From Pseudoprevotella muciniphila (GTDB lineage Bacteria; Bacteroidota; Bacteroidia; Bacteroidales; Bacteroidaceae), in NCBI RefSeq assembly GCF_003265305.2, contig NZ_CP033459.1:1984001-2048000 (forward strand): DNA of 64,000 nucleotides. The letters are read 5' to 3'. The notes beneath the pieces were generated by a model. That model saw only the letters and a program-made list of their open reading frames with translations. It made no database searches and was not told where the DNA came from. Both the position numbers and the translations under genes were made by a program. This document shows positions 6,251 to 48,959 of the stretch, in pieces; within the stretch, counting starts at the first letter, position 1, and the number at the start of each line of letters is the position of its first letter.

Positions 6251-6429
6251 TTTGCTTGAAGTTAACGAAGTTGATGTTTTCTTTGAAGTTAACGAAGTTA
6301 TTGAAGTTATCGCTACGCTCGAAGTTAACGACGTTACCTTATGCTTATATTATTTATCGGTCCAACGTATCGTCGATAACTTCGTTAACTCCGATAACTC
6401 CGAGCGTAGCGATAACTTCAGAAAGTTGA
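6251..6429 (-). repeat. GAAGTTAAC-unit intergenic element, copy A
   Basis: A 179-bp element made of GAAGTTAACGAAGTT-type units in two inverted arms around an A/T-rich core (CCTTATGC...TTTATCGG). One end reads TTTGCTTGAAGTTAACG, the other AACTTCAGAAAGTTGA. It also contains CGCTACGCTCG and its reverse complement CGAGCGTAGCG, so the transcript could fold into a long hairpin. The same termini occur at 12793-12934 and, inverted, at 48780-48959. It starts 22 bases after the stop of the gene at 6451-7410 and points its TTTGCTTG end at the start of the gene at 5522-6139. It has no coding capacity. Confidence 0.85.
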
Positions 6430-6450
6430 ATTAATTATCTTTTTGGCTTA

Positions 6451-7410
6451 TTATTGTTCGATGTCCATGGCGAGTCGCAGTCCGAGGTAGTCGTCCTTGT
6501 GTGTGGGGAAGGCGTAGAGTCGTCGTGTGGACCGGCAGTAGATGTTCCATCCGTCGAAACTGCCTCCACGGCGCACCCTTCGTTCGCCTGTTTCGGGCCC
6601 TGTGGGGTTCACTGCTTTGTCGGCGGTGTATCGGGCATACCAGTCGGAGCACCATTCGTACACGTTTCCGCTCATGTCGTAAAGTCCGAGTTCGTTAGGC
6701 AGTTTTTCAGCAACTTTGTGTGTTTTGGAGCCCGAGTTGTTGCCGAACCAGCATACGTCTTTAATGCTGTTGCTGCCGCTGTAATAGAAGCCGTTCGACT
6801 TGTTTCCTCCGCGGGCTGCAAATTCCCATTCTGCTTCTGTTGGCAGTCGGAAGGAGCGTCCTGTCAGGCTGCTCAGTGTGGCAACGAATGTCTGGCAGTC
6901 ATCCCATGTTACGGTTTCCACGGGCAGGGAATCATTCTCCGTGAAACTCGACGGGTTGCTACCCATGACGGCTTTCCACAGTTCTTGCGTTACTTCTGTT
7001 TCGGCTATGTAATAGTCGCCTACTGTTACCTGGTGGATAGGTGCTTCGTTGGAGAAGGCGTTCGGGTCGGTGGAACTGTCGGCGCCCATCATGAATGTGC
7101 CCGAAGCCACGCCTTTCATGGTGAACGTTACGCCGTTGGCTGTTACTTCGATGTCTGGAAGCGTGTGTTCGTATTGTCCGAGTATATAGTTGGTAAGCGC
7201 CACGATATCGCTCACGTTCACTTCTCCGTCGCCGTTGATGTCGCCGTATGTCGCGTTGTCGAGTGTGCCGTTGCCCAGAATATGGTTTACAAGGCTCACC
7301 ACGTCGGTAACGTTGACTGTTTCGTCGTTGTTCACATCTCCGAAGATGTGGGTAGCCGAGGCTGTGAATGGCATCAACAGGCTTATCAGTATATAGCAGA
7401 ATCTTTTCAT
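6451..7410 (-). CDS. Exported dockerin plus SUMF1/FGE-like protein
   Basis: A 319-residue exported protein. After a signal peptide (about 1-20), residues 24-47 and 56-80 form two dockerin type I-like Ca-binding repeats (GDVNNDETVNVTDVV and GDINGDGEVNVSDIV, each followed by a helix ending in ILG). From about 100 to the end is a formylglycine-generating-enzyme/SUMF1 fold: GTFMMGADSS, PVETVTWDDCQTF, RLPTEAEWEFAARGG, GLYDMSGNVYEWCSDWY and RRVRRGGSFDGW. The catalytic Cys pair of true FGE is not intact: only the second Cys (IYCRSTRR) is present, and the first position is Gly or Trp. It is therefore probably not a sulfatase-activating enzyme; the FGE fold is also used for binding and other chemistries. 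No cohesin was seen in the window. Confidence 0.88.
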   Translation of the reverse strand: MKRFCYILISLLMPFTASATHIFGDVNNDETVNVTDVVSLVNHILGNGTLDNATYGDINGDGEVNVSDIVALTNYILGQYEHTLPDIEVTANGVTFTMKGVASGTFMMGADSSTDPNAFSNEAPIHQVTVGDYYIAETEVTQELWKAVMGSNPSSFTENDSLPVETVTWDDCQTFVATLSSLTGRSFRLPTEAEWEFAARGGNKSNGFYYSGSNSIKDVCWFGNNSGSKTHKVAEKLPNELGLYDMSGNVYEWCSDWYARYTADKAVNPTGPETGERRVRRGGSFDGWNIYCRSTRRLYAFPTHKDDYLGLRLAMDIEQ

Positions 7411-7435
7411 TGGTCAGGTTATTGATGAAGCGCGG

Positions 7436-7443
7436 CAAAGGTA
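7436..7443 (-). promoter_or_regulatory. Predicted -7 box for the dockerin/FGE-like gene
   Basis: TACCTTTG on the minus strand, 25 bases before the ATG at 7410; fits TAnnTTTG. Confidence 0.55.
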
Positions 7444-7509
7444 TGTAAAAATCACGAAATGATACGGATATACCCTTAATTATTTGATTTTTTGCGCATT
7501 ACAATAGGT

Positions 7510-9294
7510 TTAGTCTAGTTCGTTGGTAGCCTTGATGAGCCATTCGCGGTCGGCATTGTCGGTAAGTAGTGGTAATAATTTCTCTCGCACTGTTCGGTGA
7601 TAGTCGTTCAGCCATGCTATTTCGTCCTTGTTTATTATCGAGCGCTCTATTGCAGCCGTGTCGATAGGACAGAGGGTGAGTGTTTCGAACTTGAGGAAAT
7701 CGCCGAAGTCAGTCTTTCCTGCAGGTACGGTCAGCAGTATGTTTTCAATGCGAACTCCAAATTTTCCTGCCACATAGATGCCAGGTTCGTTCGTAACGAC
7801 CATTCCCTCTTCGAATGGCACCATTGTGCAACCGCGCAGATTCTTACGGATCTGGTGTGGTCCCTCGTGGCAACAAAGATGGCTTCCCACACCGTGTCCT
7901 GTGCCGTGTCCGAAGTCGTAGCCGCATCGCCACATATTCATGCGTGCCGCTGTGTCGAGTTGCAGGCCTGTGGTGCCTTTCGGGAATTGCATCTGCGAGA
8001 GGGCGATGTGTCCTTTCAGCACGAGCGTGTAAACGTGTCGTTCCTCATCGGTCAGAGGTCCGAGGGCTATGGTGCGTGTGATGTCGGTTGTGCCACAGTC
8101 GTACTGTGCGCCGCTGTCGAGCAAGAGTAAGCCTTTGGGCTGTAATGCAGCACTACTTGCTTCGTTGGCTTCATAGTGGACGATGGCGCCGTGGGGACCA
8201 TAGCCGGCAATAGTGCCGAATGACAGTCCTTCAAAACCTTTCTGCTCCGCACGCAGGGCAGTGAGTTTCCTGTCTATGCTCATCTCTGTCTGTCCGCCTT
8301 GTGTAACTGCTTCATCCAGCCATCGGCGGAAACGTACTAAAGCTACACCGTCTCGCAGCATCGCCTCGCGCATACCGGCTATTTCGCCTTCGTCCTTCTT
8401 GGCACGCAGATGCTCTACGGGCGAAGTGGTAATATAGTCCTTGTCGGCTACTAATCCTTCCACCATCATGCTGTTCATGGTGCGCGCTATAGCGATGCAC
8501 CCCTCTTCGGCTATTTTTTTCAGCACGAAATTGCGCGTTTCGTCATAGGGCAAAACGCTAACCTCTGCCGTTCTGAGTGATTCGCGTGCCTCGTCAGTGA
8601 GTTTGTTGTCGTCAACGAAAAGCGCAGTCTCGGTCTGCCCTACGTACAGATATGCAAGGAACACGGGGTTGTAGTCCACATCGCCTCCTCGCAGATTGAG
8701 CAGCCATGCTGCGTCAGCGAGTTCATTTAGCAGTATGCTACCGCTGCAGTCCGGTGCGTAGCGGCGCAAGTCGTTTCGGATAGCAGCCAGTTTCTCTGCC
8801 GCTGTCTTACTCGTATAAATGGGATTCTGCACTCTGATCTTTCCGTTGGGTAACGGTGGTCGCCCTTCCCACAAACTGTCTGTTACTTCGGGTGGCGTCA
8901 GGCGTAGTGTGCGTCCCAAGTCAGCCAGCATGTCTCTTTCAGGGATCATCAGCGTGCTGCCATCGGCTGCTATCACATCGCCCGGCGAGGTGTGCCTGCA
9001 TATCCATTCGTCGGTTTCAGGCACTCCTGGCTCGCCTTCTTTCATTAAGATGATGCCACTCCCACGTAATTCTTCTTCAGCCTGTAGCCAATAGCGTGAG
9101 TCGGTCCACAGTGCGGCTTCGGTCTGTGTGACGACAGCCGTGCCGGCAGAGCCTGTAAATCCTGTCAGCCATTTCCGGAACTGGAAATGTGCCGGCAGGT
9201 ATTCGCTGCCGTGCGGGTCGCTTGTCGGTGCGTAGAATGCAGCCACACCCTCGGCTGCCATCCATTCGCGCAATTTTTCTATAGGTAAGGTCAT
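7510..9294 (-). CDS. pepP: Xaa-Pro aminopeptidase (aminopeptidase P, M24B)
   Basis: Cytoplasmic metallopeptidase removing N-terminal residues before proline. The chosen start (MTLPIEKLREWMA) gives 594 residues, as in the long three-domain aminopeptidase P family; an in-frame ATG 51 bases upstream adds an unlikely extension. Two creatinase-like N-terminal domains precede the pita-bread catalytic domain. Metal ligands are visible: LLLLDSGAQYDCGTTDITRT (two Asp), GTGHGVGSHLCCHEGPH (His), NEPGIY (Glu) and VRIENILL (Glu). No signal peptide. It is divergent from mdh, with 126 bases between the two starts. Confidence 0.94.
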   Translation of the reverse strand: MTLPIEKLREWMAAEGVAAFYAPTSDPHGSEYLPAHFQFRKWLTGFTGSAGTAVVTQTEAALWTDSRYWLQAEEELRGSGIILMKEGEPGVPETDEWICRHTSPGDVIAADGSTLMIPERDMLADLGRTLRLTPPEVTDSLWEGRPPLPNGKIRVQNPIYTSKTAAEKLAAIRNDLRRYAPDCSGSILLNELADAAWLLNLRGGDVDYNPVFLAYLYVGQTETALFVDDNKLTDEARESLRTAEVSVLPYDETRNFVLKKIAEEGCIAIARTMNSMMVEGLVADKDYITTSPVEHLRAKKDEGEIAGMREAMLRDGVALVRFRRWLDEAVTQGGQTEMSIDRKLTALRAEQKGFEGLSFGTIAGYGPHGAIVHYEANEASSAALQPKGLLLLDSGAQYDCGTTDITRTIALGPLTDEERHVYTLVLKGHIALSQMQFPKGTTGLQLDTAARMNMWRCGYDFGHGTGHGVGSHLCCHEGPHQIRKNLRGCTMVPFEEGMVVTNEPGIYVAGKFGVRIENILLTVPAGKTDFGDFLKFETLTLCPIDTAAIERSIINKDEIAWLNDYHRTVREKLLPLLTDNADREWLIKATNELD

Positions 9295-9375
9295 GATATA
9301 GTCCTGTTTAAGTGTGGTTTCCACAAAATTACAAAAAAAACTCAAAAAGCCAGCATAATTGCACCTTTTTTTTGT

Positions 9376-9383
9376 TAACTTTG
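9376..9383 (+). promoter_or_regulatory. mdh: Predicted -7 box for mdh
   Basis: TAACTTTG, 37 bases before the mdh ATG in the A/T-rich region shared with the divergent pepP. Confidence 0.6.
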
Positions 9384-9420
9384 CCGTTGCGAATAGATCA
9401 ACAACAAAAACATAAACATT

Positions 9421-10413
9421 ATGGCATTTTTAACAAACGACAAATTGGTTATCGTCGGTGCTGCCGGCATGATTGGCTCCAACATGGTTCAGACAGCCCT
9501 GACGATGGGTCTTACAAACAACATCTGCCTCTACGATGTGTTCTCACCCGAAGGTGTGGCAGAAGAAATGCGTCAGTGCGGTTTCGGCGACGTGAACATC
9601 GTTGCTACGACAGATGTAAAAGAAGCATTCACTGATGCGAAATATATCATCTCCAGTGGTGGTGCTCCCCGCAAGGAAGGCATGACGCGCGAAGACCTGC
9701 TTGCCGGCAACTGCAAAATTGCTGAAGAACTCGGCAAGAATATCAAGGCTTATTGCCCCGACGTGAAGCACGTGGTAATTATCTTCAACCCTGCTGATCT
9801 CACGGGTCTTGTAACATTGCTGTACAGCGGTCTGAAACCCTCTCAGGTAACCACACTTGCTGCCCTCGACTCCACACGTTTGCAGAGTGCACTGGCAAAG
9901 AAATTCGGTGTGATGCAGAGCGAAGTAACGGGCTGTGCCACATACGGCGGTCATGGTGAACAGATGGCTGTGTTCGGTTCAAATGTTAAGATAGCAGGCA
10001 AGCCGCTTACAGAGATTATTGGTACCGATGCCTTCCCTGAGGCAGAGTGGGAACAAATGAAGAAGGACGTTACTCAGGGCGGTGCTGCCATCATCAAGTT
10101 GCGTGGTCGCAGTTCATTCCAGAGCCCCTCGTATCTGAGCGTAGAGATGATTCGCAGCGTGATGGGTGGCGAAGCATTCCGCTATCCAGCCGGTACTTTC
10201 GTCAACAACGACAAGTACAGCCGCATCATGATGGCTATGGACACCACGCTCGACACCAATGGCTGCACCTACCGCATGCCACAGGGCACACCCGAAGAAC
10301 TTGCAAAACTCGATGCTTCTTACGAGCACCTCTGCAAGATGCGCGACGAACTCGTTACGCTCAACATCGTGCCACCCATCGAAGAGTGGAGCAACATCAA
10401 TCCTAATCTCTGA
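9421..10413 (+). CDS. mdh: Malate dehydrogenase
   Basis: NAD-dependent oxidation of malate to oxaloacetate, in the reverse direction part of the reductive branch to fumarate/succinate typical of Bacteroidales. The 330-residue product has the Rossmann motif GAAGMIG (13-19), substrate arginines in GAPRKEGMTR (Arg84, Arg90), Asp150/Arg153 (LDSTRLQ) and the catalytic His178 in GGHGEQM. It matches the Bacteroidetes form of the enzyme rather than E. coli MDH. Single-gene unit with its own promoter and terminator. Confidence 0.95.
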   Translation: MAFLTNDKLVIVGAAGMIGSNMVQTALTMGLTNNICLYDVFSPEGVAEEMRQCGFGDVNIVATTDVKEAFTDAKYIISSGGAPRKEGMTREDLLAGNCKIAEELGKNIKAYCPDVKHVVIIFNPADLTGLVTLLYSGLKPSQVTTLAALDSTRLQSALAKKFGVMQSEVTGCATYGGHGEQMAVFGSNVKIAGKPLTEIIGTDAFPEAEWEQMKKDVTQGGAAIIKLRGRSSFQSPSYLSVEMIRSVMGGEAFRYPAGTFVNNDKYSRIMMAMDTTLDTNGCTYRMPQGTPEELAKLDASYEHLCKMRDELVTLNIVPPIEEWSNINPNL

Positions 10414-10435
10414 TTTTAGGGACATAACAAAACAG

Positions 10436-10473
10436 AAAAGGTCGGCATTTCAATGTGCCGGCCTTTTTTAGCG
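10436..10473 (+). terminator. Rho-independent terminator after mdh
   Basis: GGTCGGCA and TGCCGGCC form an 8-bp stem (one G-T pair) around TTTCAATG, followed by TTTTTT. The A-rich flank on the other side means it may also serve the convergent GH92 gene. Confidence 0.75.
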
Positions 10474-10490
10474 GTTGCAGTGATTCTGTC

Positions 10491-12773
10491 TCATTCATCG
10501 CGCGACATGGAGTAGGGTGCATCGGTCGGGGTGGTGCCGCGTTGTGTGTCGGGCTGTGGTGCCATGTCGAAGTGGAGGCGGATGCCGCGTTGCAGTGTTT
10601 CGTGGCGGAGGTAGTTGCGTGTGTAGGGCTTCCCATCCATGGTGAGGCGATGTATATAGACGTTGTCGGCACTCACGTCGGGCGCGGTTAGTGTTGTGGT
10701 GCGTCCGTTCGCGAAGTGTATGGCGGCGCGGCGGAAGAGTGGTGAGCCGATGGCGTACTGGTCCGTGCCGGGACAGACGGGATAGAAGCCAAGGGCGCTG
10801 AATACGTACCATGCGCTGGTCTGACCGTTGTCCTCGTCGCCGGGATAGCCGTCGGGTGTGGCGCGGTAGAGTTTGCGCATGGCATCGTGTACGTGCTGCT
10901 GCGCCTTCCAGGGTTGTCCTGCCCAGTCGTAGAGGTAAATCATGTGCTGTATAGGCTGGTTGCCGTGGGCGTAGTTGCCCATTCCTGCCACTTGCATCTC
11001 TCGTATCTCATGAATGACACCGCCATAGTAGGACGCATCAAAGCGTGGCGGTACGCTGAACACGCTGTCGAGCATCTGGCAGAAGTTCTCCTTGCCACCC
11101 ATCAGCCGTATGAGACCGTCGATGTCGTGGAACACGGACCACGTGTAGTGCCAGGCATTGCCCTCGGTGAAGACTTCGCCCCACTTCAGCGGTTCGAAGG
11201 GTGTCTGCCATGTGCCGTCCTTGCGTTTGCCGCGCATCAGGCGGTGTGAGGGGTCGAAGAGGTTGCGGTAGTTGAGGGCTCGCCTGTGGAGTTCTGCCGT
11301 GTCGGCACGCCCCATTTCCTTCGCGAGTTGCCACAGGCACCAGTCGTTGTAGGCATACTCCAGCGTGCGCGCCGCACTCTCGTTGATGCCCACGTCGCAG
11401 GGAATGTAACCCAACTTGTTGTACCAGTCATAACCCTTGCGACCTGTAGAACCCACAGTGGGATGGACAGCGCGGGTGGCATGGAGCAAGCCTTCAAAGA
11501 GTGTTGTGCTGTCGGCAACACGCACTCCCTTTAGGTAGGCATCGGTGAGCACTGATGCGGAGTTGTTGCCCACCATGCAGTCCCTGTGTCCCGGGCTGCA
11601 CCATTCGGGGAAAAAGCCGCTCTCGCGGTAGGCATTGAGGAAGCCCTCCTGCATCTCGCGGTTTACGTCGGGATAGACCAGGTTGAGCAACGGAAACAGG
11701 CTGCGGAAGGTGTCCCAGAACCCCGTGTCGGTATAGAGATAGCCCGTATGCAGTTTTCCGTCGTAAGGGCTGCGGTGCAAGATGTTGCCGTCGGCATCGC
11801 ATTCATAGAGTTTGCGGGGGAAGAGCAGGCAGCGGTACAGGCAGGAATAGAACGTGCGCGCCTGGTCGATGTCGTCCATATCTACCTCGATGCGTCCCAG
11901 CACATCGTTCCAGGCCTTGCGTCCTTCCTCCCCGAGTGTCTCGAGCGATTTGTCAGCAAGTTCTGCCCGCAGGTTCTGCCTCGCTTGCATGATGCCGATG
12001 AACGATGATGCCACGCGTGCCGTAACGCGTTGCCCCTTAGTCGTGCGGAAACCTATCATGACACCGGCGTGGTTGCCTCTGGCTTCCAGGGTGTCTGCCT
12101 GTTGTCCGTCCAGAACAGTGCGAACTACGCTGAATGGTGTGTCGAACTCCACTACAAACCAGCAGCAGAAACCATCCGCCACACCACCACTGTTTTTCGT
12201 TGTGTAGCCCGAGATGCGGCGGTGAAGGGTATCAATCGCCACCGCGGAACCGCCGTCGAAAGCATCTATCGCTACCCACGCGCTGTCGGTCTGCGGAAAT
12301 GTGAAACGCATCAGGCAGGCACGCTCCGTCGGTACGAGTTCCGCCCGCACGTCGTGGTCGGCAAGATAAACCTCATAACTATAGGGTGTGGCTTTCTCGC
12401 TGAGGTGGGAGAACCAACTGGCGCGCCCCTCTTCGTCGAACACACCGCGTCCCACGAGAGGCATCAGTGAGAATTGCCCGTAGTCGTTGATCCATGGGCT
12501 GGGCTGGTGTGTCTGCTTGAAGCCGCGCAGGCGGTGTGCCGTGTAGGTGTATTGCCATCCGTTACCATTCTTGCCCGTCTGCGGTGTCCAGAAATTCATG
12601 CCCCATGGCCGGCAGATGGCGGGATAGGTGTTGCCCGCCGAGAGTTCGTAACTTGAAGCCGTGCCCATCAGCGGGTTGACCAGCGCAGCATAGTCGGTGG
12701 CTGCAGTTTGCGCCTGCGCCGTGATGCCGAAGAAGCCCAGCCACGACAGGAGAAAGAGGAAAAACTTATTCAT
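10491..12773 (-). CDS. GH92 family glycosidase (alpha-mannosidase-like) with Gln at the presumed acid position
   Basis: Exported GH92 enzyme of 760 residues; signal peptide about 1-22 (MNKFFLFLLSWLGFFGITAQAQ). The family's two-domain layout is present: N-terminal beta-sandwich starting YAALVNPLMGT and a C-terminal alpha-barrel with GNAWHYTWSVFHDIDGLI and GDEDNGQTSAWYVFSALGFY, the latter holding the conserved Asp pair of the base. The neighbouring GH92 has HGNEPSHH at the presumed catalytic acid; here the motif is HGNQPIQH with Gln606. From memory, Gln at this site characterises GH92 enzymes that cleave mannose-1-phosphate linkages, whose leaving group needs no acid. That function is an inference. 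The repeat element at 12793-12934 sits immediately upstream, and no good -7 box was found. The tail after about 740 is unusually polar. Confidence 0.93.
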   Translation of the reverse strand: MNKFFLFLLSWLGFFGITAQAQTAATDYAALVNPLMGTASSYELSAGNTYPAICRPWGMNFWTPQTGKNGNGWQYTYTAHRLRGFKQTHQPSPWINDYGQFSLMPLVGRGVFDEEGRASWFSHLSEKATPYSYEVYLADHDVRAELVPTERACLMRFTFPQTDSAWVAIDAFDGGSAVAIDTLHRRISGYTTKNSGGVADGFCCWFVVEFDTPFSVVRTVLDGQQADTLEARGNHAGVMIGFRTTKGQRVTARVASSFIGIMQARQNLRAELADKSLETLGEEGRKAWNDVLGRIEVDMDDIDQARTFYSCLYRCLLFPRKLYECDADGNILHRSPYDGKLHTGYLYTDTGFWDTFRSLFPLLNLVYPDVNREMQEGFLNAYRESGFFPEWCSPGHRDCMVGNNSASVLTDAYLKGVRVADSTTLFEGLLHATRAVHPTVGSTGRKGYDWYNKLGYIPCDVGINESAARTLEYAYNDWCLWQLAKEMGRADTAELHRRALNYRNLFDPSHRLMRGKRKDGTWQTPFEPLKWGEVFTEGNAWHYTWSVFHDIDGLIRLMGGKENFCQMLDSVFSVPPRFDASYYGGVIHEIREMQVAGMGNYAHGNQPIQHMIYLYDWAGQPWKAQQHVHDAMRKLYRATPDGYPGDEDNGQTSAWYVFSALGFYPVCPGTDQYAIGSPLFRRAAIHFANGRTTTLTAPDVSADNVYIHRLTMDGKPYTRNYLRHETLQRGIRLHFDMAPQPDTQRGTTPTDAPYSMSRDE

Positions 12774-12792
12774 TACAAGTTTAGAAATGCTA

Positions 12793-12934
12793 TTTGCTTG
12801 AAGTTAATGAAGTTAGCGAAGTTAGCGACGTATGTTTTGTTCGACAGATGGTCATTTACTTTCCACTTGGTGGTATCGTCTGTAACTTCGTTAACTCCGT
12901 TAACTCCGAGCGTAGCGAAAACTACAGAAAGTAG
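12793..12934 (-). repeat. GAAGTTAAC-unit intergenic element, copy B
   Basis: A shorter (142-bp) member of the family. It shares the ends TTTGCTTGAAGTTAA and ...ACTACAGAAAGTAG, the CGAGCGTAGCG block and the GTTAACTCC units, but its core is diverged from copies A and C. It fills the gap between the nucleoside kinase stop (12960) and the GH92 start (12773), with the TTTGCTTG end facing the GH92 gene, 20 bases from its ATG. Confidence 0.8.
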
Positions 12935-12959
12935 AGGCATGTTATATTATATACCTCTC

Positions 12960-14624
12960 TCAATATTTAAAAGTGCTTCCGCCGAGGAATTCCCGCAGCA
13001 GCGAAGTTGGTGGCAGGCCTTTAGTGGAGATGGGCTGGACGTAGAGGAGGAATTTCTTGAGTCGGTATGCCTCGCTGTATTCCGGTTCGTGTTCCGGCAC
13101 TTGTTCGAGCAGTTGCAGTGCCTTGTCGCGCAGTGCGGCGAGTTCGAAGAGCAGTGCGGTGTTGATCATCTCGTCAGCCTGTTCCTCGAAGGGGAAAATC
13201 CACTTTTCTTCTCCTGCCCTCACGCTTGGCCAGCGGCGTATGGTTTCAAGTGCAGAATAGCCTCTGTATTTGTAGTCGCGCACGATGCGTCGCAGCAGGC
13301 GGTTGTCGGTAGTGGGTATGTAGTTGTGGTAGTCGAGCAAGATACTCGTCAGGGCTGAAGCATAGATCTTGAACTTGTTCTCCTTCGGGATGTCCTTTGT
13401 GATAAGCGGATTGAGGGCGTGTATGCCTTCGAGGATGATGAGGTCGTTCTTTTCGAGTTGTACGAAGTTTCCGCTTCGCTCGCTCTTACCCGTCTGGAAG
13501 TTGTATCTGGGCAGTTCCACGTTCTGTCCGTTGAGGAGGGCGTTCATCTGCTCGTTGAACAATGGTATGTTCAGTGCCTCTACGTGTTCGAAGTCGTATT
13601 CCCCGTTTTCATCGCGAGGTGTCTTGTCGCGGTCCACGAAATAATCGTCGAGCGAGATGGGAATGGGGTGTAGTCCGCAGGTCTGCAGTTGCACACTCAG
13701 TCGTTTGGCAAAGGTGGTTTTTCCGCTTGAACTTGGTCCTGCTATGAGTATGACGCGCAGCCGTTGGTCTGCTGCTATGCGGTCTGCCATTTTCATAATG
13801 CGTTTTTCCTGCAGTGCTTCGCTGACATTGATGAGTTCGATGGTGCGTCCCTCTTCGCAGGCACGATTAAACTCTCCAACGGTGGTCATATTGAGAATGT
13901 CCTGCCAGCGGTGTTGTTCGCGGAAAATGCCCAACAAGCGTTCCTGTGCCACCATCGGGCGCAGTCTGTCTGGATCTTTTGAGTCGGGGATGCGCAATAA
14001 CAGTCCTTCGCTGTGAGGTACAAGGTCGAAGAGATAGACCTGTCCTGTTGAGATGAGCAGTGAGCCGTAGAAATAGTCTGGCAGTCCGTCGAGGGTGTAG
14101 TAGGTGGTGTAGAGTGCCCCGCCTGTCTCGATGAGCACCGCCTTGTCCTCCTGTCCATGTTCACGGAAGAGTTGTATCGCCTGGTCAGAAGGCACTGTGT
14201 TGCGGTGGAAGGGAATGTTTTCGTCCACTATTTCCTGCATCCGGTTGCGCAGAGCGTTGACGATGTCTTCCGTTACGCCTCCCTCGAGGTCGAGCCGGCA
14301 ATAGTAGCCGTTGAGTACGCTGCAGTCTATGCGTAAGCGTGCCTGAGGATAGAGGTCGTGCACTGCCTTGTAGAGTATGAAGAAGAGCGACCGGCTGTAT
14401 GTGCGCCTGCCTGAGGGATTTGTCACGTCGATGAATTCCACGTCTTTGTCGCTGAAGATGGTATAGTGGAGTCCTTCCACCTTGTTGTTCACCTTGGCGC
14501 TTGTTGCGCCATGCGGTAAGTCGAGTTCGAGCATTTCATACACTTGCTCGAGGTTGAAACCTAAGGGCACTTTGTGTGTCTTACCAGTGTTTTTGCAACG
14601 TACGTTGATGGTTTGTAAAGGCAT
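12960..14624 (-). CDS. Nucleoside (uridine-type) kinase with N-terminal TGS/ThrRS-like region
   Basis: Cytoplasmic kinase of 554 residues. Residues about 1-65 look like a TGS domain, and about 70-250 like the threonyl-tRNA synthetase second additional domain. The C-terminal half (about 290-500) is a phosphoribulokinase/uridine kinase domain with P-loop GPSSSGKT (296-303), SLDDYFVDR and LILEGIHALNP. This fusion is the usual Bacteroidetes and Clostridia 'uridine kinase' form. It probably phosphorylates uridine or cytidine in pyrimidine salvage; substrate specificity is not visible. It lies 44 bases after a GH92 gene on the same strand and may be co-transcribed with it. The TGS part suggests nucleotide-dependent regulation, which is inference. 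Confidence 0.9.
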   Translation of the reverse strand: MPLQTINVRCKNTGKTHKVPLGFNLEQVYEMLELDLPHGATSAKVNNKVEGLHYTIFSDKDVEFIDVTNPSGRRTYSRSLFFILYKAVHDLYPQARLRIDCSVLNGYYCRLDLEGGVTEDIVNALRNRMQEIVDENIPFHRNTVPSDQAIQLFREHGQEDKAVLIETGGALYTTYYTLDGLPDYFYGSLLISTGQVYLFDLVPHSEGLLLRIPDSKDPDRLRPMVAQERLLGIFREQHRWQDILNMTTVGEFNRACEEGRTIELINVSEALQEKRIMKMADRIAADQRLRVILIAGPSSSGKTTFAKRLSVQLQTCGLHPIPISLDDYFVDRDKTPRDENGEYDFEHVEALNIPLFNEQMNALLNGQNVELPRYNFQTGKSERSGNFVQLEKNDLIILEGIHALNPLITKDIPKENKFKIYASALTSILLDYHNYIPTTDNRLLRRIVRDYKYRGYSALETIRRWPSVRAGEEKWIFPFEEQADEMINTALLFELAALRDKALQLLEQVPEHEPEYSEAYRLKKFLLYVQPISTKGLPPTSLLREFLGGSTFKY

Positions 14625-14668
14625 GTTGAATAATTTATAAAATGAGTTAAGCCTATTTCCTTAATTAG

Positions 14669-16834: not shown

Positions 16835-16860
16835 GTTTTTTTTGATTGTTAAGTTTGGAG

Positions 16861-38915: not shown

Positions 38916-38928
38916 CAAATCTTTATCC

Positions 38929-39444: not shown

Positions 39445-39500
39445 AGCGAAAACGGGCTGCGAAAAAAAACTTAAACAGGACGAATGACCTAATAAGATAT

Positions 39501-39618: not shown

Positions 39619-39650
39619 AAGAAAATTGGTCAGTAAAAAAGGTCAAAAGA

Positions 39651-39688
39651 AAAGCCTTAATTGGTGAATTAGAACCAATTAAGGCTTC
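39651..39688. terminator. Bidirectional terminator between convergent genes
   Basis: AAGCCTTAATTGGT and ACCAATTAAGGCTT form a perfect 14-bp stem with loop GAATTAGA. On the minus strand it is followed by TTTCTTTT, serving the gene at 39726; it also closes the plus-strand adenosyltransferase transcript. Confidence 0.85.
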
Positions 39689-39725
39689 TTATAATAGTAT
39701 GTTTAAGTGTTATGATACCAAATGC

Positions 39726-41861: not shown

Positions 41862-41940
41862 GATGGCGTAGGTATTTTGATTTTCTGTTTTGACGAAAGA
41901 AATACGCTAATGGTTTAATGAAATTTCTGCATATCGCACC

Positions 41941-42933
41941 TTATTTTTTGCTTACCGCCCCGAGGTGGTAGATAATGGTCTGGGCATTGATGCCCGGGCG
42001 CACTTCCTCGAGTTTGTCGGCAATCGCCTTGACGTCTGCTTCGCTGCATTCCCATACGCGCACTTCCTGTCCGGGCACGATGTGGATGTCGTAGTCGGCA
42101 GTCATTGCGCCGTGGAGTGTACGCGCCTGTATCACCTGGTAGAGCGTGTCGCCACTGATTCGCGCGTAAATGGTGGAGTCCGATAAGTTCTCATCGTAAA
42201 GGATACCCTTAAAATCTTTGCCGCTGAAGAGCAGTTGCCACCGGTAGTTCGGATAGGCGGCGCAGAGTGGCAGGTCGTAGTTGCGCAGGTGCTTGAGGAA
42301 AGGCTCTACGTCGCGCATGTCGAGGATGGGGTTGTGATCGGAACGCACTTTCAGGTTGCCCGTGTTGTAAACCATCAGCACACCGTAGTCGGCAGGTGGT
42401 GGTGCCTGCTGCAACTGGTGTAGGCGTATGGTTACGCTCATGCCCCAGCCAAAAGCCTTCAGGCGGGTGCGGATGTCCTCGAGCAAGGCGAAATAGGTAT
42501 CGCGCGAACGCGGTGTCCAGTCGCAGTCAATCTGTACCTCGCTCACATTGGGCACATGCTCACTGTCCGTCATCTTCTTCACCCTGGTCGCGATTTTCTC
42601 GCCAAGCGATGCGGTGTCGGCATGCAGGCACTCTTCGGTGATAAAAACCGTGGGAATGACCTTTATGCCGGCGGGTATGCTGTCCCTGAACTGCAATGTG
42701 CCTACAGGCATTGCCCTGCCGTCAAGCAGAGCCACGTCGAAGAACTTTACGTACATCTTCCCCACCTCGTGCTGGCGGAGATAAGCCCTCTCCGTGCTGT
42801 CGAGCGCAAGTTGTGTCTGCCAATAGTACACACTGGGGCATGGTTCAGGCACATTGCCAATTTCCTTACGGCAACCCGTGGTAATGGTGCAGAAAATAAA
42901 TAGAGAGAGGAGTATGTAATAATGTCTCTTCAT
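41941..42933 (-). CDS. Lipoprotein with possible TIM-barrel domain, function unknown
   Basis: A 330-residue lipoprotein; signal peptide MKRHYYILLSLFIFCTITTGC with lipid-modified Cys21. The body alternates strand-helix: GKMYVKFFDVAL, IKVIPTVFITEECL, VSEVQIDCDWTPRSRDTYFALLEDIRTRLKA, MSVTIRLHQL, YGVLMVYNTGNL and LPLCAAYPNYRWQLLF. Such successive strands followed by helices, with Asp/Trp at a strand end (QIDCDW), resemble glycoside-hydrolase-like TIM barrels. No catalytic Glu pair can be assigned. It precedes the 711-residue helical protein and probably forms a two-gene operon with it. Export is secure; fold is inference. Confidence 0.8.
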   Translation of the reverse strand: MKRHYYILLSLFIFCTITTGCRKEIGNVPEPCPSVYYWQTQLALDSTERAYLRQHEVGKMYVKFFDVALLDGRAMPVGTLQFRDSIPAGIKVIPTVFITEECLHADTASLGEKIATRVKKMTDSEHVPNVSEVQIDCDWTPRSRDTYFALLEDIRTRLKAFGWGMSVTIRLHQLQQAPPPADYGVLMVYNTGNLKVRSDHNPILDMRDVEPFLKHLRNYDLPLCAAYPNYRWQLLFSGKDFKGILYDENLSDSTIYARISGDTLYQVIQARTLHGAMTADYDIHIVPGQEVRVWECSEADVKAIADKLEEVRPGINAQTIIYHLGAVSKK

Positions 42934-42952
42934 AAAGGGTCGTTTTCAAAAG

Positions 42953-42960
42953 CAAAGATA
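42953..42960 (-). promoter_or_regulatory. Predicted -7 box for the lipoprotein/helical-repeat pair
   Basis: TATCTTTG on the minus strand, 19 bases before the ATG at 42933. Confidence 0.6.
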
Positions 42961-43023
42961 GTGCTTCCCGAAAAATAATTTCGTTTTCCTAAAAAAGTTT
43001 TTGAATAATAAACATTATTACAT

Positions 43024-43060
43024 CAAAAAAAAGCGGACCGACACTGTTGCCGGTCCGTTA
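43024..43060 (-). terminator. Rho-independent terminator after the modular exported protein gene
   Basis: On the minus strand ACGGACCG and CGGTCCGC form a stem around GCAACAGTGT, followed by eight T. Confidence 0.88.
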
Positions 43061-43082
43061 GAGTTGATGGTAGAGGGTTTCC

Positions 43083-45587
43083 TTATTTCAGGATAACCTT
43101 CTTGCCGTTTACGATGTAGATACCCTTTGTTGGGTTGGCCACGCGGCGACCCTGGAGGTCGAAGATGACGTTCTTGCCAACAGTAGTTTCTGTCTGTACC
43201 TTTTCGATGTCGGTAGGAATGCCGTCGCTCTTAACAGCGATGTCCTTGATTTCCCATGTGCCTGCAGCAGAAGTAGTGCTGGTGTAGAGGAAACCGATAA
43301 CAATCTTCTTGCCACCATAGACAGAGAGGTCAACAGTCTGTTTCTCGAATGCAGAGAAACTCTTACCATCGGCTATTTCAGGATAAGTGATGCTGACTTG
43401 ATTCCACTTGTCTTCTTTCAGGCTTGGAGCGGCTGACGTGCCGTCGACAGTCTTAATCCACAAGGTGGCTTCTTCTGCCACATTGCCGAAGTGCTTGCTG
43501 ATGCACTGTGAGAACACGAGGCGTGTGGGCTGACCTGCCGGAATCTCAATAACAGGAGTTTCGAGACGGCTCTGGGTAGCGTGATTGGTCTTGTTGATAT
43601 ACGCAGTGGCTTTTGCGCCGTATTGTGTGTCGAATGACCATACATATATGGATTCGTCAACGCTGATGTTGTTGACAGTAAGTGTGTTTTCGCTGCTTGT
43701 GCAAGCCTCTGAATAGAGGGTAGTGTTGTCTGGATCAGGATCTACGTTGCCGCCACCTTCGGAAGCGTCATATACGCTGATACCTTTCACTTCCCATGTA
43801 CCGGCTTTGGTTTCTGTACTGATATAACGGAAGGAGATTTGAATCTTGCTACCTACGAAGTCTTCGAGGCTGATAGTGTCGTTCACGAATGTCCAACTTG
43901 TGGGATATGCACCGATAGGCATCTGTACCCAGTCGCTGTATTCACCACCGTCGGCTGTGCGTACCCAGATGGTTGCTTCGTTCTGAATGGTGCCGAAGAA
44001 CTTACCTGCGTGCTGGTATGCGAGAACGGGGAGTTCTGCAGTGCCGAGGTCGATGATGGGCGAAAGAATTTCGCTTTCGGCAGCATAGTTCGTGCTGTTG
44101 GCATAAGCAGTAGCCTTCATACCATATTTGCTGTCGAATACCCAAACATTTTCAACGGCTTCAGGGCGAGTGATGTTGTGGATGGCGAATTGACCTATGC
44201 CTTCTGCCATGCTTTCTTCGTATGGCAGCGATACTTCGCCAACTTGAGGTTCATCATCGTCGGGATTAACCGGGTCGGGGTCGGTCGTTGCGTCCTTGTC
44301 AATAACACTTACATTCTTCACTTCCCATGTGCAAGCACCGTTAGGGGTACTGGTGTAACGGAAAGCGAGTTGAATGTTCATGCCGGCATACTGTATGAGG
44401 CTGATGGTGTCGCTGACGAAAGCCCATGAGTTGCCATCAGGAAGAGTGTTGATTGTGAGGGGTGACCATTCTGTGGCGCCCGTGGGTTCAACGATGCAAA
44501 TCAGAACACTCACTTCGTCGGGGAGGGAAGTGAAGAATTTGGCGGTATGGTCGAAAGTCAGGATGGGATCCTTGGCGCCTGCAAGCGAAATGACAGGCGA
44601 AACAATCTGACTGACTGCTTCGTAGTTCACTTGATTCTTGAAAGCACTTGCCTTCATGTAGCCGCGAGACTTGTCTGCCGTCCAAACGTATGTCAGAGAG
44701 TCGTGCATAGAGATGTTCTCGATGGTAAAGGTTCCAATGCCGTTGCCGAATGTCTCCGTGAAAGGCAGTGACTGAATTTCTGTAGAAGGATCAGTACCGG
44801 GATCAGTACCTGGGTCGGTGGAGGTGGAGTCAGCCTTGATGTTGTACGTTTGCGAAGCAATACCGCTGGCATTTCCTGCAACATCGTATGCAACCGCCTT
44901 AACTGTTACTGAACCCACTGTTGTCAGAGTGAACGGCTCCTCATAGAGCGTGCTTTGGTTGGTGGGATCGTTACCGTCGGTGGTGTAGTAGATGGTTGTC
45001 GTGCTGTCGCCCTTGATAGTTACCGTAACCTGACCGGTTTTGGTGCCACCATTGGGAGAAATCACAGGAATCTGAACATTCACCACGTCGGTCTGCGTGT
45101 TGTTGTCAGCGTCTTGCAGCGTTACCTCAATGACTGTAATCTGAGATGTACCTGTACCGGAGAAAGTAACGCTTGTGGCATTGCCGCTCCATTCTTTACC
45201 GGTGAGCGTGGCAGGGTTCGCACTGGCATTCAAGTTGCGTGCCGTAAACTTGATTTTGGTAAGCGCCTTGCCGCTTGGGGCGGTAATGTACAGTTCTCCG
45301 CCTTTGTAGAAACGGAGTTCGCAAACACCGGTGCCGTTGTTCTTGTTGTAGTACCACCAAAGACGGGCAGGATTGTTTGCACCAGCCTTGCTGGATGTGA
45401 TCTTAACGCCGTCCTGCGAAAGAATGACAGCGCCGTCTGTCTGGTCACCACGCGTACCATCATAACTTGTGCCCATCCGCATGGTGTCGGTTATCGCCGT
45501 GATGTCGAACGTAACCGTCTGTGCGTTGACCGTAATGCCACATAATGCTATGGCCAACACAGCAAGAAAAGTGTAGAATTTCTTCAT
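43083..45587 (-). CDS. Exported modular protein with chitobiase-C-like domain, three tandem repeats and sorting-type tail
   Basis: An 834-residue exported protein. The start is ATG 45587 (MKKFYTFLAVLAIALCGITVNAQ), preceded by a good -7 box; the frame is open further upstream but lacks a signal peptide there. Order: N-terminal beta-sandwich (about 24-160), chitobiase/hexosaminidase C-terminal-like domain (about 174-250, IYYTTDGNDPTNQSTLYEEP), a TDPGTDPGTDPST linker, three tandem 'cleaved adhesin'-like repeats (about 273-430, 453-600, 620-780), and the tail FDLQGRRVANPTKG followed by IYIVNGKKVILK. Each repeat has the scheme YVW...GMKATAY...SPIIDL...FRYxSTxxxGxWEVKxxSV. Probably an outer-surface adhesin or binding protein; ligand unknown. 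Confidence 0.88.
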   Translation of the reverse strand: MKKFYTFLAVLAIALCGITVNAQTVTFDITAITDTMRMGTSYDGTRGDQTDGAVILSQDGVKITSSKAGANNPARLWWYYNKNNGTGVCELRFYKGGELYITAPSGKALTKIKFTARNLNASANPATLTGKEWSGNATSVTFSGTGTSQITVIEVTLQDADNNTQTDVVNVQIPVISPNGGTKTGQVTVTIKGDSTTTIYYTTDGNDPTNQSTLYEEPFTLTTVGSVTVKAVAYDVAGNASGIASQTYNIKADSTSTDPGTDPGTDPSTEIQSLPFTETFGNGIGTFTIENISMHDSLTYVWTADKSRGYMKASAFKNQVNYEAVSQIVSPVISLAGAKDPILTFDHTAKFFTSLPDEVSVLICIVEPTGATEWSPLTINTLPDGNSWAFVSDTISLIQYAGMNIQLAFRYTSTPNGACTWEVKNVSVIDKDATTDPDPVNPDDDEPQVGEVSLPYEESMAEGIGQFAIHNITRPEAVENVWVFDSKYGMKATAYANSTNYAAESEILSPIIDLGTAELPVLAYQHAGKFFGTIQNEATIWVRTADGGEYSDWVQMPIGAYPTSWTFVNDTISLEDFVGSKIQISFRYISTETKAGTWEVKGISVYDASEGGGNVDPDPDNTTLYSEACTSSENTLTVNNISVDESIYVWSFDTQYGAKATAYINKTNHATQSRLETPVIEIPAGQPTRLVFSQCISKHFGNVAEEATLWIKTVDGTSAAPSLKEDKWNQVSITYPEIADGKSFSAFEKQTVDLSVYGGKKIVIGFLYTSTTSAAGTWEIKDIAVKSDGIPTDIEKVQTETTVGKNVIFDLQGRRVANPTKGIYIVNGKKVILK

Positions 45588-45625
45588 AATGTTTGGTTTA
45601 TAAATATTAAGATGTTTCGTGTTTG

Positions 45626-45633
45626 CAAAATTA
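45626..45633 (-). promoter_or_regulatory. Predicted -7 box for the modular exported protein
   Basis: TAATTTTG on the minus strand, 38 bases before the ATG at 45587. Confidence 0.6.
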
Positions 45634-45741
45634 TAAAATATAATTTTCACGGCTAAATTTATTGAATTCTTTTTTTGAAAAAATACAAGGCATGGATACA
45701 GTGAAGTATTGAAAAAACCCGACAATACCGATAAGTTTTCG

Positions 45742-45749
45742 TAAATTTG
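45742..45749 (+). promoter_or_regulatory. Predicted -7 box for the methyltransferase gene
   Basis: TAAATTTG, 15 bases before the ATG at 45765. Confidence 0.6.
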
Positions 45750-45764
45750 CAAAAATCTTCGGCG

Positions 45765-46940
45765 ATGACAAATAGTGATACATTACGCCTGATAGCAACC
45801 CACATCAGCGATGATGTGGCACAACTTGCGTTGCAACTGCAAGGGCATCCCGATGCTGAGTTTATCCTTCGGCAGGTGGAGGGGCGGCAGGTGATGGCAA
45901 GGAAAGTGCCGCCATGGGCGAAGGTGGACGACATTCATTATCCGCGCAGAATATCGCTCGAACAATGCAGCGGCGAGTCGGCGGCGAGATATAAGGCGGA
46001 CCTCGCCCGCCGCTTGCTGCCCGGGGGTGGAACCTTTGCCGACATTACCGGCGGGCTTGGCGTGGATTTCTCCTTTATCGCCAAGCATTTCCAGCGTGCC
46101 GTCTATGTGGAGCGTCAGGCTGAACTCTGCGAACTGGCGCGTCATAATTTCCCGTTGTTAGGTTTGCCTGATGCAGAGGTGGTGAATGACGATGGGGTGG
46201 AAGTACTCACGAAGATGGACCAGGTGGACCTTCTCTTCGTTGACCCTGCCCGGCGCGACGGACAGGGCAGAAAAGTGGTGATGCTCAGCGATTGTGAACC
46301 GAATGTGGTGGAACTCAACCGACTGCTTCTGTCGAAAGCGCGTTTTACCATCCTGAAACTCTCACCCATGCTCGACATTCACGCTGCCCTGCAACAGTTG
46401 GAAGGCGTCTGCGAAGTACATGTTGTGGCAGAGCGCAACGAATGCAAAGACCTGCTCCTCGTGATGAACAGAAGCGGGAGGCAAGCGCCCGTCGTCTTCT
46501 GCCACGATGAGAATGTGGACATTCAGTTCTTCTGCGAAGAAGAGAAAAACATACAGCCGGAATATGCCGACAGCGTGGAAACCTATCTCTATGAGCCGGG
46601 TGTAACTCTACTCAAGGCAGCGGCATACAACCTGCCCTGCCAACGCTACGGTGTGAAAAAACTCCACCCCAACAGCCATCTCTATACCTCGCAGGAACTC
46701 GTACCCGACTTCCCGGGCAGGACATTCCGGGTGGTGGAGCAGCACGATTACAAGAAAAAACAAATCAGCAACCTCAGTGGCAGTAAAGCCAACCTCGCAG
46801 TAAGAAATTTTCCAGACAGTGTAGCACAACTCCGTAAACGACTGAAAATCAAAGATGGAGGTGAGGAATATTGGTTTGCTACAACATTAAAACAGGGCGA
46901 AAAAGTGATTGTGCGAACAAAAAAAGCAAAAAAACTGTAA
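45765..46940 (+). CDS. Class I SAM-dependent methyltransferase with THUMP-like C-terminal domain
   Basis: A 391-residue cytoplasmic protein starting MTNSDTLRLIATHISDD. Residues about 90-180 form the SAM-binding core: FADITGGLGVDFSFIAKHF (motif I), VYVERQAELCELA (motif II) and LLFVDPARRDGQGRK (about 153-167, motif IV with DPARR). The C-terminal quarter (LKDGG-like basic region) matches the THUMP-like end of Bacteroidetes homologues. RNA is the likely substrate by family resemblance, but neither base nor site can be stated. It ends 37 bases before the ECF sigma gene. Confidence 0.85.
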   Translation: MTNSDTLRLIATHISDDVAQLALQLQGHPDAEFILRQVEGRQVMARKVPPWAKVDDIHYPRRISLEQCSGESAARYKADLARRLLPGGGTFADITGGLGVDFSFIAKHFQRAVYVERQAELCELARHNFPLLGLPDAEVVNDDGVEVLTKMDQVDLLFVDPARRDGQGRKVVMLSDCEPNVVELNRLLLSKARFTILKLSPMLDIHAALQQLEGVCEVHVVAERNECKDLLLVMNRSGRQAPVVFCHDENVDIQFFCEEEKNIQPEYADSVETYLYEPGVTLLKAAAYNLPCQRYGVKKLHPNSHLYTSQELVPDFPGRTFRVVEQHDYKKKQISNLSGSKANLAVRNFPDSVAQLRKRLKIKDGGEEYWFATTLKQGEKVIVRTKKAKKL

Positions 46941-46977
46941 CTTTTCATAAACTAATCCGTCTTCTAAATAGAGAGCG

Positions 46978-47490
46978 ATGAACAAACCGGATTTCAAAAA
47001 CGATTTGATGCCGCTGAAAGACATGCTCTTTCGGCTCGCAATGCGCATCACTCTCGACCGCGCAGAGGCGGAGGACGTTACAGAAGATACACTCATCAGA
47101 GTGTGGAACAAACGAGACGAGTGGAGCAAAATTAAATCGGTCGAGGCATACGCAATGACCATCTGCAGAAACCTCGCTCTCGACCGAAGCCAAAAACGAG
47201 AAGCGATGAATGTGTCGCTCGAAGAGCACGACAACGAAGCACCCGACAATGACGACGGACCGCACGAAAAAATGGTCAGAAGCGAAAGACTCAGATGGGT
47301 GCACAAATTCTTCCAGGAACTCCCGGAAAAGCAGCGAACAGTGATGCAACTGAGAGACATAGAAGAAAAAAACATCAAAGAAACAGCCGAAATAATCGGC
47401 ATCAGCGAACAAGACGTTAAAGTAACACTCTTCAGAGCAAGACAAACCATCCGCAACAAATTGCAGAAATTAGAAAATTATGGACTATAA
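46978..47490 (+). CDS. ECF-family RNA polymerase sigma factor
   Basis: A 170-residue extracytoplasmic-function sigma factor. Region 2 is DMLFRLAMRITLDRAEAEDVTEDTLIRVWNK (about 15-45) and region 4 is LPEKQRTVMQLRDIEEKNIKETAEIIGISEQDVKVTLFRARQ (about 115-156). An acidic linker (EEHDNEAPDNDDG) separates them. It overlaps the following gene by 11 bases, the usual arrangement for a sigma factor and its anti-sigma factor. No separate -7 box was seen, so it may read through from the methyltransferase gene. Confidence 0.94.
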   Translation: MNKPDFKNDLMPLKDMLFRLAMRITLDRAEAEDVTEDTLIRVWNKRDEWSKIKSVEAYAMTICRNLALDRSQKREAMNVSLEEHDNEAPDNDDGPHEKMVRSERLRWVHKFFQELPEKQRTVMQLRDIEEKNIKETAEIIGISEQDVKVTLFRARQTIRNKLQKLENYGL

Positions 47491-48004
47491 ATATATCGAA
47501 CAACTGCTAAACCGCTATTGGGAATGCGAAACAACCATGGAGGAAGAAAACATTCTCCGCGCATTCTTCAAGCAGCAAAACCTGCCCGAACACTTCGAGC
47601 AGTATAAGCCGCTGTTCGATTACGAAAGCGAACAGGCGAACCTCACCACTTCTGAGGGCTTCGAAGAACGTGTGCTCCGGAAAATACAGCAAGAAGGCAA
47701 CGAAAAGGGCGAAACGAAGAAAAAACGTACCGCCTTTATCAGCCTGCGACCACTCTACAACGCTGTGGCAATGGTAGCAATAGTATGTATGGTGGCGCTC
47801 GCTGCACAGCACACCTTCTCCAACCAGCAGGAAGAGGAATGGGATACCACCAGCACTCCGGAAATGTCCTACAAAGAGTCGTTCACCGACCCACAAGTGG
47901 CAAGAAGCGAACTCAGGGACATGCTCAAGACAATGAGTTCCACATTCAGCGATACACAGTCGCCCGACTCGGTGGAAAACAAAGAGGAAGTCATCAACGA
48001 CTAA
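47480..48004 (+). CDS. Membrane-anchored anti-sigma factor (probable)
   Basis: A 174-residue protein with one membrane helix (about 95-112, AVAMVAIVCMVALAA). The acidic cytoplasmic N-terminal part begins MDYKYIEQLLNRYWECETTMEEE, a helix pattern shared by many Bacteroidetes anti-sigma-type proteins, and about 60 residues lie outside. The start overlaps the sigma gene by 11 bases. It presumably holds the sigma factor at the membrane; the assignment rests on context and topology, because no zinc-binding (ZAS) motif is present. Confidence 0.8.
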   Translation: MDYKYIEQLLNRYWECETTMEEENILRAFFKQQNLPEHFEQYKPLFDYESEQANLTTSEGFEERVLRKIQQEGNEKGETKKKRTAFISLRPLYNAVAMVAIVCMVALAAQHTFSNQQEEEWDTTSTPEMSYKESFTDPQVARSELRDMLKTMSSTFSDTQSPDSVENKEEVIND

Positions 48005-48010
48005 ACAATT

Positions 48011-48493
48011 ATGAGAAGGCTATTCCTCATCATAGCAGTCATCATGATTCTGGTGCCCACCATGGCGCAGAAAAACCATCGCAATGCTGAACCCGACTTC
48101 GCAGCGTACTTCATGAATGCCTATCAGGATGAAGAGTTTGAGGTAACAAACATCGGTCCGAAAATGATAGCCGACATCATCGACGATTGCGAAAACAGGA
48201 ACGAAGCGGAAGTGAAAGCCAACCTCGAAAAACTCAACAGCGTGAGGATGGTCGTCACAGACAAAAAGGCAAAAACGCATTTCGACAATGCAGTGAGACT
48301 TGCCGACAAAAACAAAAAACGATATAAACTGCACAGGACAGGAAAGAACAGCAGGTTCTACATCCACCAGCGAAACGGAGTCATCATGGAGTTCTTCATG
48401 ATAGCAACAGAAGGAAAAGGGTTCGTCATCATGGACTTTACAGGAAAAATGACAGAACAAACCGTCAACTGGATGTGCAACAGAAATTACTGA
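48011..48493 (+). CDS. Exported DUF4252-like protein
   Basis: A 160-residue exported protein; signal peptide MRRLFLIIAVIMILVPTMAQ. The body (FAAYFMNAYQDEEFEVTNIG ... GVIMEFFMIATEGKGFVIMDFTGKM) matches the pattern of DUF4252 proteins, which often form the third gene of Bacteroidetes sigma/anti-sigma operons. It starts seven bases after the anti-sigma gene. It may be the regulon's output or a periplasmic signal; unknown. Confidence 0.8.
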   Translation: MRRLFLIIAVIMILVPTMAQKNHRNAEPDFAAYFMNAYQDEEFEVTNIGPKMIADIIDDCENRNEAEVKANLEKLNSVRMVVTDKKAKTHFDNAVRLADKNKKRYKLHRTGKNSRFYIHQRNGVIMEFFMIATEGKGFVIMDFTGKMTEQTVNWMCNRNY

Positions 48494-48667
48494 AAACAAT
48501 CATAAGCCAAAACAATCAATAAACAATTACAATCAATCACAAGTAAAACAATTAAAAACTACTGACTTTTTTTGAAGGGAACGACATCAATTGCCTTTAA
48601 AACAACAGAATCCGACAGGGTTCAGTTCTCTCAAAAAAACAAAACCAAAACGGAAATTCCGATAAAG

Positions 48668-48698
48668 AGAGGAGGATAGAAAGTCTTCCTCTTTTTGT
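48668..48698 (+). terminator. Rho-independent terminator of the sigma operon
   Basis: GAGGAGGA pairs with TCTTCCTC (one G-T) around TAGAAAG, followed by TTTTTG. It lies about 175 bases after the stop at 48493; the bases between are A-rich with nothing else evident. Confidence 0.65.
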
Positions 48699-48779
48699 TT
48701 TGTATGCGACAAAACATCAAAGCATTTCAGCACCACTTCCTTTTCAACAGAATTAGGATAACAGAAGGAATGTCTTTAC

Positions 48780-48959
48780 TCAACTTTCTGAAGTTCTCGC
48801 TACGCTCGGAGTTAATGCTTTTTGAAGTTATCGCTTCGCTCGAAGTTAACGACGTAACCTTATGCTGATGTCTTTTTTCTTTCTTCATTTGTTATTTATC
48901 GGTTCAACGTTTCGTCGTTAACTTCTTTAACTTCGCTAACTTCGTTAACTTCAAGCAAA
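48780..48959 (+). repeat. GAAGTTAAC-unit intergenic element, copy C
   Basis: A 180-bp member of the family seen at 6251 and 12793. Its left end TCAACTTTCTGAAGTT and right end AACTTCAAGCAAA are the reverse complement of copy A's ends. The internal core (CGACGTAACCTTATGCTGATG ... TTATTTATCGGTTCAACGT) runs in the same direction as copy A's core, so core and termini are inverted relative to each other. The TTTGCTTG end faces the PP2C gene and stops 30 bases before its -7 box. Confidence 0.85.

Follow-up and report, generated by a model that had tools for sequence, protein, structure and literature searches.

Here we show that three intergenic repeats in a stretch of 64,000 nucleotides of the Pseudoprevotella muciniphila genome (hereafter, the window; positions 1,984,001 to 2,048,000 of contig NZ_CP033459.1) belong to a new family of non-autonomous, MITE-like mobile elements, in which an internal core, and not the outer ends, keeps one orientation relative to transcription. 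The favored reading, to which we assign a rough probability of 0.58, is a MITE-like family in which co-transcription acted as the filter for surviving insertions. We infer a filter that acts at the RNA level, without naming one cause. With this bias, the family provides a natural experiment on which sequences between cotranscribed genes are tolerated by the machinery of transcription and RNA decay in Bacteroidales.

The original prediction, made from the window, described a three-copy family. Many further copies were found in the host genome (G000), which carries at least 58 loci. These range from 40 to 800 bp (median below 200 bp), one being a 40-bp fragment; a typical element is about 100-300 bp long. 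The loci were gathered by searches with three different copies, by patterns for the ends and the block, and by local BLAST on genome stretches, and the total is a lower bound, with the best 40 of the 70-79 candidates scored in each whole-genome DNA search. The recurrence of the element elsewhere in the genome is well beyond chance (E-values down to 1.8e-55), and, with genes called by a simple hexamer scorer, none of the 58 loci lies inside a gene.

The left end, TCAAGTTTCGCAAGTTCCA(C/T)TTGCTTGAAGTTAA, is an imperfect inverted match of the right end, CTTCAGAAAGTTGA, over about 16 bp. Inward of the ends, GAAGTTA-type units stand opposite units of the TAACTTC type. These units are frequently accompanied by a CGAGCGAAGCG or CGAGCGTAGCG block and enclose a core. 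In core A, GACGATACGTTGGACCGATAAATAAC is separated from CATCAGCATAAGGTAACGTC by a purine-rich spacer whose length varies; among copies with reliable ends, 17 carry this core in one orientation relative to the ends and 7 in the other. Core B is present in 10 of the 58 loci, and its parts keep one order with respect to the ends in all 9 tokenised copies containing both; its mRNA-sense strand likewise starts with GACGATACC. In some loci, the units form arrays with a spacing of about 65-73 bp; these are found mainly within 879-1050 kb of the host genome.

The shared ends, the GAAGTTAAC/GTTAACTTC units and the CGAGCGTAGCG blocks reported for the three window copies were found in the places originally given, whereas the extents had to be enlarged slightly, because the left end (consensus TCAAGTTTCGCAAGTTCCA) runs further outward. 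Copy A (6241..6429, plus strand, from the left end, the TTTGCTTG side, to the right end) carries the common form of core A, in sense with its minus-strand neighbors: the upstream gene (6451..7410, minus), encoding an FGE-sulfatase domain and a dockerin type I, and the downstream gene (5522..6139, minus), encoding a protein of 205 amino acids without a Pfam match at 1e-5. A probable target duplication, TTAATTAT, can be read from the sequence at 6233..6240 and 6431..6438. Copy B (12775..12935, plus strand) has core type B and lies between the upstream gene of the phosphoribulokinase/uridine kinase family (12960..14624, minus) and the downstream gene of glycosyl hydrolase family 92 (10491..12773, minus), its left end being 2 bp upstream of the start codon of the latter; no target duplication was seen at this copy. 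Copy C (48780..48978, minus strand) is located between genes for a DUF4252 protein (48011..48493, plus) and, downstream, a PP2C phosphatase (49018..49713, plus), and is flanked by a 10-bp target duplication with one mismatch, detected in the duplication test (48769..48778 and 48979..48988). The measured distances of A and B from the preceding stop codon are 21 and 24 bp, respectively; copy C is 286 bp from the preceding stop. The original description missed that the core of C, compared with that of A, is inverted relative to the ends and that B has a different core. At gathering score, the Rfam search of the window gave only two tRNAs, adjacent genes with identical scores (53629-53702 and 53726-53799, minus strand); one copy, searched with E-values up to 1, matched two miRNA models of plant type, with scores far short of the cut-offs of these models.

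The elements have terminal inverted repeats and target duplications, are multicopy and short, and contain no transposase gene, for which, at 40-800 bp with a median below 200 bp, they are too short. Among the 31 copies with both ends present (at most 4 mismatches each), a set that does not include copy A because its left end is degraded, 22 had flanking direct repeats above the 95% level of a mismatched-pairing control, and 0 of 500 permutations did as well. The excess identity was found at lengths 9 and 10 only. An exact target duplication of 10 bp flanks a coreless copy at 1940224, which is 102 bp long. Of the view that these are intergenic transcribed structures rather than random insertions, the polarity stands, whereas the contrast with insertion is not supported: the repeats are mobile, with inverted ends and 9-10-bp duplications. 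No inverted pair of ends 1-3 kb apart was seen by eye in the host genome among 100 of the 109 places found with 2 mismatches, and the matches listed (1 mismatch) for two other carrier genomes, G071 and G150 (see below), showed none spaced widely enough for a transposase. One copy (L021), used as a query, had no match in either the plasmid or the phage collection.

No published description of the family was recognised in the portions of the literature searched, where four element words had no match. Like the present repeats, BrickBuilt and other MITEs of Porphyromonas gingivalis are intergenic, transposase-free Bacteroidales elements with inverted ends and expanding internal tandem repeats, as far as the part of their description used here goes (PMC4596501). 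That part gives them GAGACC... ends of the IS5 type and duplications of 2-5 nt, in contrast to the TCAAGTTTC... ends and the 9-10 bp observed here, where GAGACC-type ends were not found; strong polarity relative to transcription also sets the present family apart from them (PMC4596501). The BOX, RUP and SPRITE repeats of Streptococcus pneumoniae are similarly small, interspersed, modular and palindromic, with an amplifiable middle unit in BOX; in the sections of PMC3049150 considered, these occur between convergent genes more often than expected, with only 61-63% on the leading strand, whereas here 47 of the 58 loci lie between co-directional genes and the core points one way in 41 of 44. ERIC and the Yersinia elements are likewise palindromic MITEs, and ERIC is described, in the excerpts cited, as co-transcribed in operons with an orientation-dependent effect on the message (PMC2229807, PMC3049150). 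According to the published table, ERIC is 127 bp long with 7-bp ends and TA termini, and the present family differs from it in duplication length and ends.

We consider it very improbable that the elements are a REP/RAYT-type family of palindromes moved by a Y1 transposase. They are indeed palindromic, intergenic and partly arrayed, and the relevant part of PMC3733652 reports similarly palindromic, extragenic CGTC- and GTAG-tagged REPs, of which the CGTC type lacks a dedicated transposase and occurs in Bacteroidetes. However, REPs are hairpins of 20-40 bp in that account (PMC3733652), and the modular elements of about 100-300 bp, which have inverted ends and duplicate 9-10 bp of target, fit them in neither size nor duplications.

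The 47 of 58 loci between co-directional genes represent only a trend toward tandem gaps, compared with 125 of 185 gaps of at least 60 nt (P=0.068). Within these tandem loci, the placement is tight: the upstream stop is within 41 bp in 43 of the 47, and the median distances are 13 bp from this stop to the element and 38 bp from the element to the next start, as measured from the edges of BLAST clusters, with the true left ends some 10-30 bp further out. From this position, copies between co-directional genes are probably transcribed into mRNA. After subtraction of the element, the tandem gaps that bear one have a median length of 52 bp, compared with 69 bp among the remaining 227 tandem pairs (P=0.61), and so are not shorter than other tandem gaps; residence in operons is therefore argued from single pairs and not in general. 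The operon-like pairs that are split by elements include NfeD/SPFH, a small HMA protein and a P-type ATPase, an FGGY kinase and an MFS transporter, and a dUTPase and a TPR protein. SbcD/SbcC, operon-like by content, is also split; in two relatives, the overlap of this pair is 4 nt, and in others where both frames were read, the spacing is 12-264 nt.

The constant polarity that was originally proposed from three copies holds in a genome-wide tally of orientation, which is not random. Reliable outer ends could be assigned in 40 of the 58 loci, and in 27 of these, the TTGCTTG end faces the next start, with the other end behind the previous stop; five loci are reversed, five lie between divergent genes and three between convergent genes. 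The core follows transcription more strictly: it points one way in 41 of the 44 co-directional loci with a clear core (P=1.6e-9; 3 of the 47 were dropped for lack of one), with core A running along transcription in 32 of 35 loci and core B in 9 of 9. In copies with an inverted core, the ends are flipped in 4 of 5 cases, compared with 0 of 13 among the others (stricter criteria for the ends; Fisher P=0.0016). Hence the core, rather than the outer ends, keeps the polarity. Between divergent or convergent genes, the core is found on either strand. The replication strand was ruled out as the cause, given that, with the chromosome divided into thirds, the core tracks the gene strand in every one.

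The three exceptions among the 44 loci are copy C of the window, the only single-copy one, and two arrays that flank one gene of 665 codons at 887.5-889.5 kb (L037:9312-12503; genome 886812-890002). Inversion of the segment with this gene between the palindromic arrays would account for both array exceptions. By eye, the genes between the arrays (L037:8439-15962, minus strand) resemble a phage-derived or mobile region, with an amidase-like and a possible capsid-like product.

A fixed orientation could be set at integration, if the transposition complex, perhaps reading the arm or the core, entered just behind stop codons with fixed polarity, as would fit the tight spot behind the upstream stop (median 13 bp) and the persistence of polarity even in copies without any antisense terminator. 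We hold this to be unlikely, as transposases usually act on the ends of an element, whereas the polarity belongs to the core and not to the ends (4 of the 5 inverted-core copies have flipped ends), and both core strands occur at divergent and convergent loci.

Ends of the kind described above, together with diverged cores, were found in a genome of another genus of the same family (G071) and in the goat-reticulum MAG RGIG3230 (G150). In G071, the core polarity was kept in 8 of 9 tandem loci, with core scores of 22 or more, a threshold picked after the scores had been seen, and with the best 30 of 47 matches given loci; a looser automatic tally, including low-score rows flagged as intragenic, gave 11 vs 3. 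In G150, where the direction was defined from this genome itself, 9 of 11 loci agreed at a score cut of 20, a result that is not significant alone (P=0.065; the best 30 of 91 matches given loci); L179 and L181, below the cut, agreed as well and were not counted. The majority strand in G150 is again the A-richer one (24 A and 12 T in the reference core). An origin of the polarity in chance, or in an artefact of gene calling or assembly, is scarcely credible: gene calling did rest on a simple hexamer scorer, and yet P is 1.6e-9 in the host genome and the same rule appears in two other genomes.

Beyond these genomes, an exact 27-base motif was found in 16 stretches, not all of them full elements, of nine Prevotella, Bacteroidaceae and Bacteroidales MAGs, mostly named from rumen or reticulum. 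In an automatic tally, the MAG loci with this motif gave 7 against and 1 with an arbitrary reference, many with low scores; of these MAGs, only G150, tallied anew as above, entered the polarity result. Among 150 relatives, 13 genomes, the host included, had a match, many of these short and chance-like, and the family is nearly absent from genus-mates, three of which had one weak match each (at most the best 5 candidates per genome in both cases). One genus-mate, G044, has a short core-like remnant, GAAGTTAAAGACGATACTTTAAA, directly behind a stop codon and in the usual polarity (L058, near 1500).

Several properties of the RNA could underlie a filter by co-transcription. The core spacer is A-rich in the mRNA sense (339 A, 120 G, 58 T and 34 C), so that a U-rich loop would appear in the transcript of the avoided orientation. 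Terminator-like sites at -6 kcal/mol were found in 0 of 40 copies in sense and in 16 of 40 in antisense (copies longer than 260 bp or without a clear core were left out). Shuffled sequences of the same composition gave frequencies of 0.375 in antisense and 0.10 in sense, so that composition accounts for the antisense figure and the sense strand is somewhat depleted. Furthermore, all 11 tandem copies without an antisense site below -4 keep the polarity. Antisense terminators were therefore rejected as the full cause and may at most contribute. A more stable hairpin in sense was rejected as well, because the folding energies of the whole element do not differ between strands (-51.3 in sense vs -52.5 in antisense). 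The consensus core stem has -11.4 kcal/mol in sense vs -5.0 kcal/mol in antisense, and its variants favor pairing in sense, with 20 G-U vs 6 A-C cells over 24 cores, counted by hand in copies that are not independent; an excess of G-U could also arise from strand-biased C-to-T mutation. The best 40 nt contain 29.0 pyrimidines on the pyrimidine-rich strand vs 22.9, and Rho loading on that strand is a possible cause of the polarity, as is an AU-rich cleavage site of the kind reported for ERIC in the portions of PMC2229807 and PMC3049150 used here.

The sense-specific G-U pattern in the core stem and the position behind stops would also be expected if the elements had been adopted as functional 3'-UTR or intercistronic RNAs, stabilisers or regulators, with the orientation kept because the sense RNA works; the orientation-dependent effects of ERIC on messages, in the excerpts cited, provide a precedent (PMC2229807, PMC3049150). 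Such adoption appears quite improbable to us, given that no conserved flanking function was seen in the gene pairs examined, that no covariation beyond wobble changes was seen, and that the near-absence of the family from genus-mates gives no sign of a long-conserved role at any locus.

Under the favored reading, filtering by co-transcription, a transposase recognising the ends of about 16 bp would insert the elements, with the duplication of 9-10 bp of A+T-rich target that is seen at the copies. The palindromic arms of GAAGTTAAC-type units flank the core, which lies either way between them, and the arm units are multiplied to give the arrays. Copies that land between co-directional genes, in some apparent operons, would probably be read into mRNA, and those with the core the wrong way would be lost through selection at the RNA level, leaving the one orientation that is observed. 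In the mRNA sense, the form that survives reads 5'-GACGATAC-[A/purine-rich loop]-CATCAGCAT-GTCGTTAACTTC-3' and is part of a hairpin. The reverse form would expose a U/pyrimidine-rich loop and may disturb the message via termination, Rho loading or RNase cleavage.

The family copy between sbcD (L082:2722-3975, plus) and sbcC (L082:4155-7871, plus; genome 1950321-1955470) lies next to proteins of unusual sequence. SbcD scores above the NCBIfam cut-off of TIGR00619, and SbcC below its cut-offs. The SbcD frame is open, with the usual phosphoesterase motifs lost and a Pfam Metallophos score below the cut-off; SbcC is also open and without the usual Walker A. In relatives, motifs I, III and V of SbcD, which we take to be the metal ligands, are kept in 28 of 28 genomes with a readable motif (one further locus gave none). 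Judged by these sequences, the host SbcCD palindrome nuclease looks catalytically dead, and no second SbcD was found in this genome. The action of SbcCD at palindromes is established, according to the parts of PMC3315005 and PMC4245961 cited.

A tentative and rather doubtful extension of the favored reading would be an operon-adapted transposable element, whose core has a harmless and a harmful side that transcription sorts, and for which the loss of SbcCD helped the palindromic arms and arrays to bloom. If this link were true, the loss of a repair nuclease would be tied to a bloom of palindromes, which genome comparisons could test. An intact SbcD query had no hit in G071, G077 or G150, all of them carriers; among eight further MAGs with the 27-base motif, SbcD looked intact in two, was weak and partial in two, and was not found in four. 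With the diverged host SbcD as the query, there was no hit in 10 of 42 genus-mates and in 19 of 28 genomes of other families in the order, which, as judged without a detailed check, do not carry many elements. The intact-looking SbcD in some motif-bearing MAGs and the genomes with neither SbcD hits nor many elements argue against a simple link between SbcCD and the elements.

The host genome also contains a second repeat family, with the core AAGAATTTGAGAATT, whose clean loci are too few for a test of polarity. Its 11 motif hits include sites at L018 (about 580-1660), L022 (about 2240-3300), L099 (about 3950-4120) and L104 (about 3900-4040); the copies have the same kind of ends and are partly in tandem arrays, and one shows a 10-bp duplication by eye.
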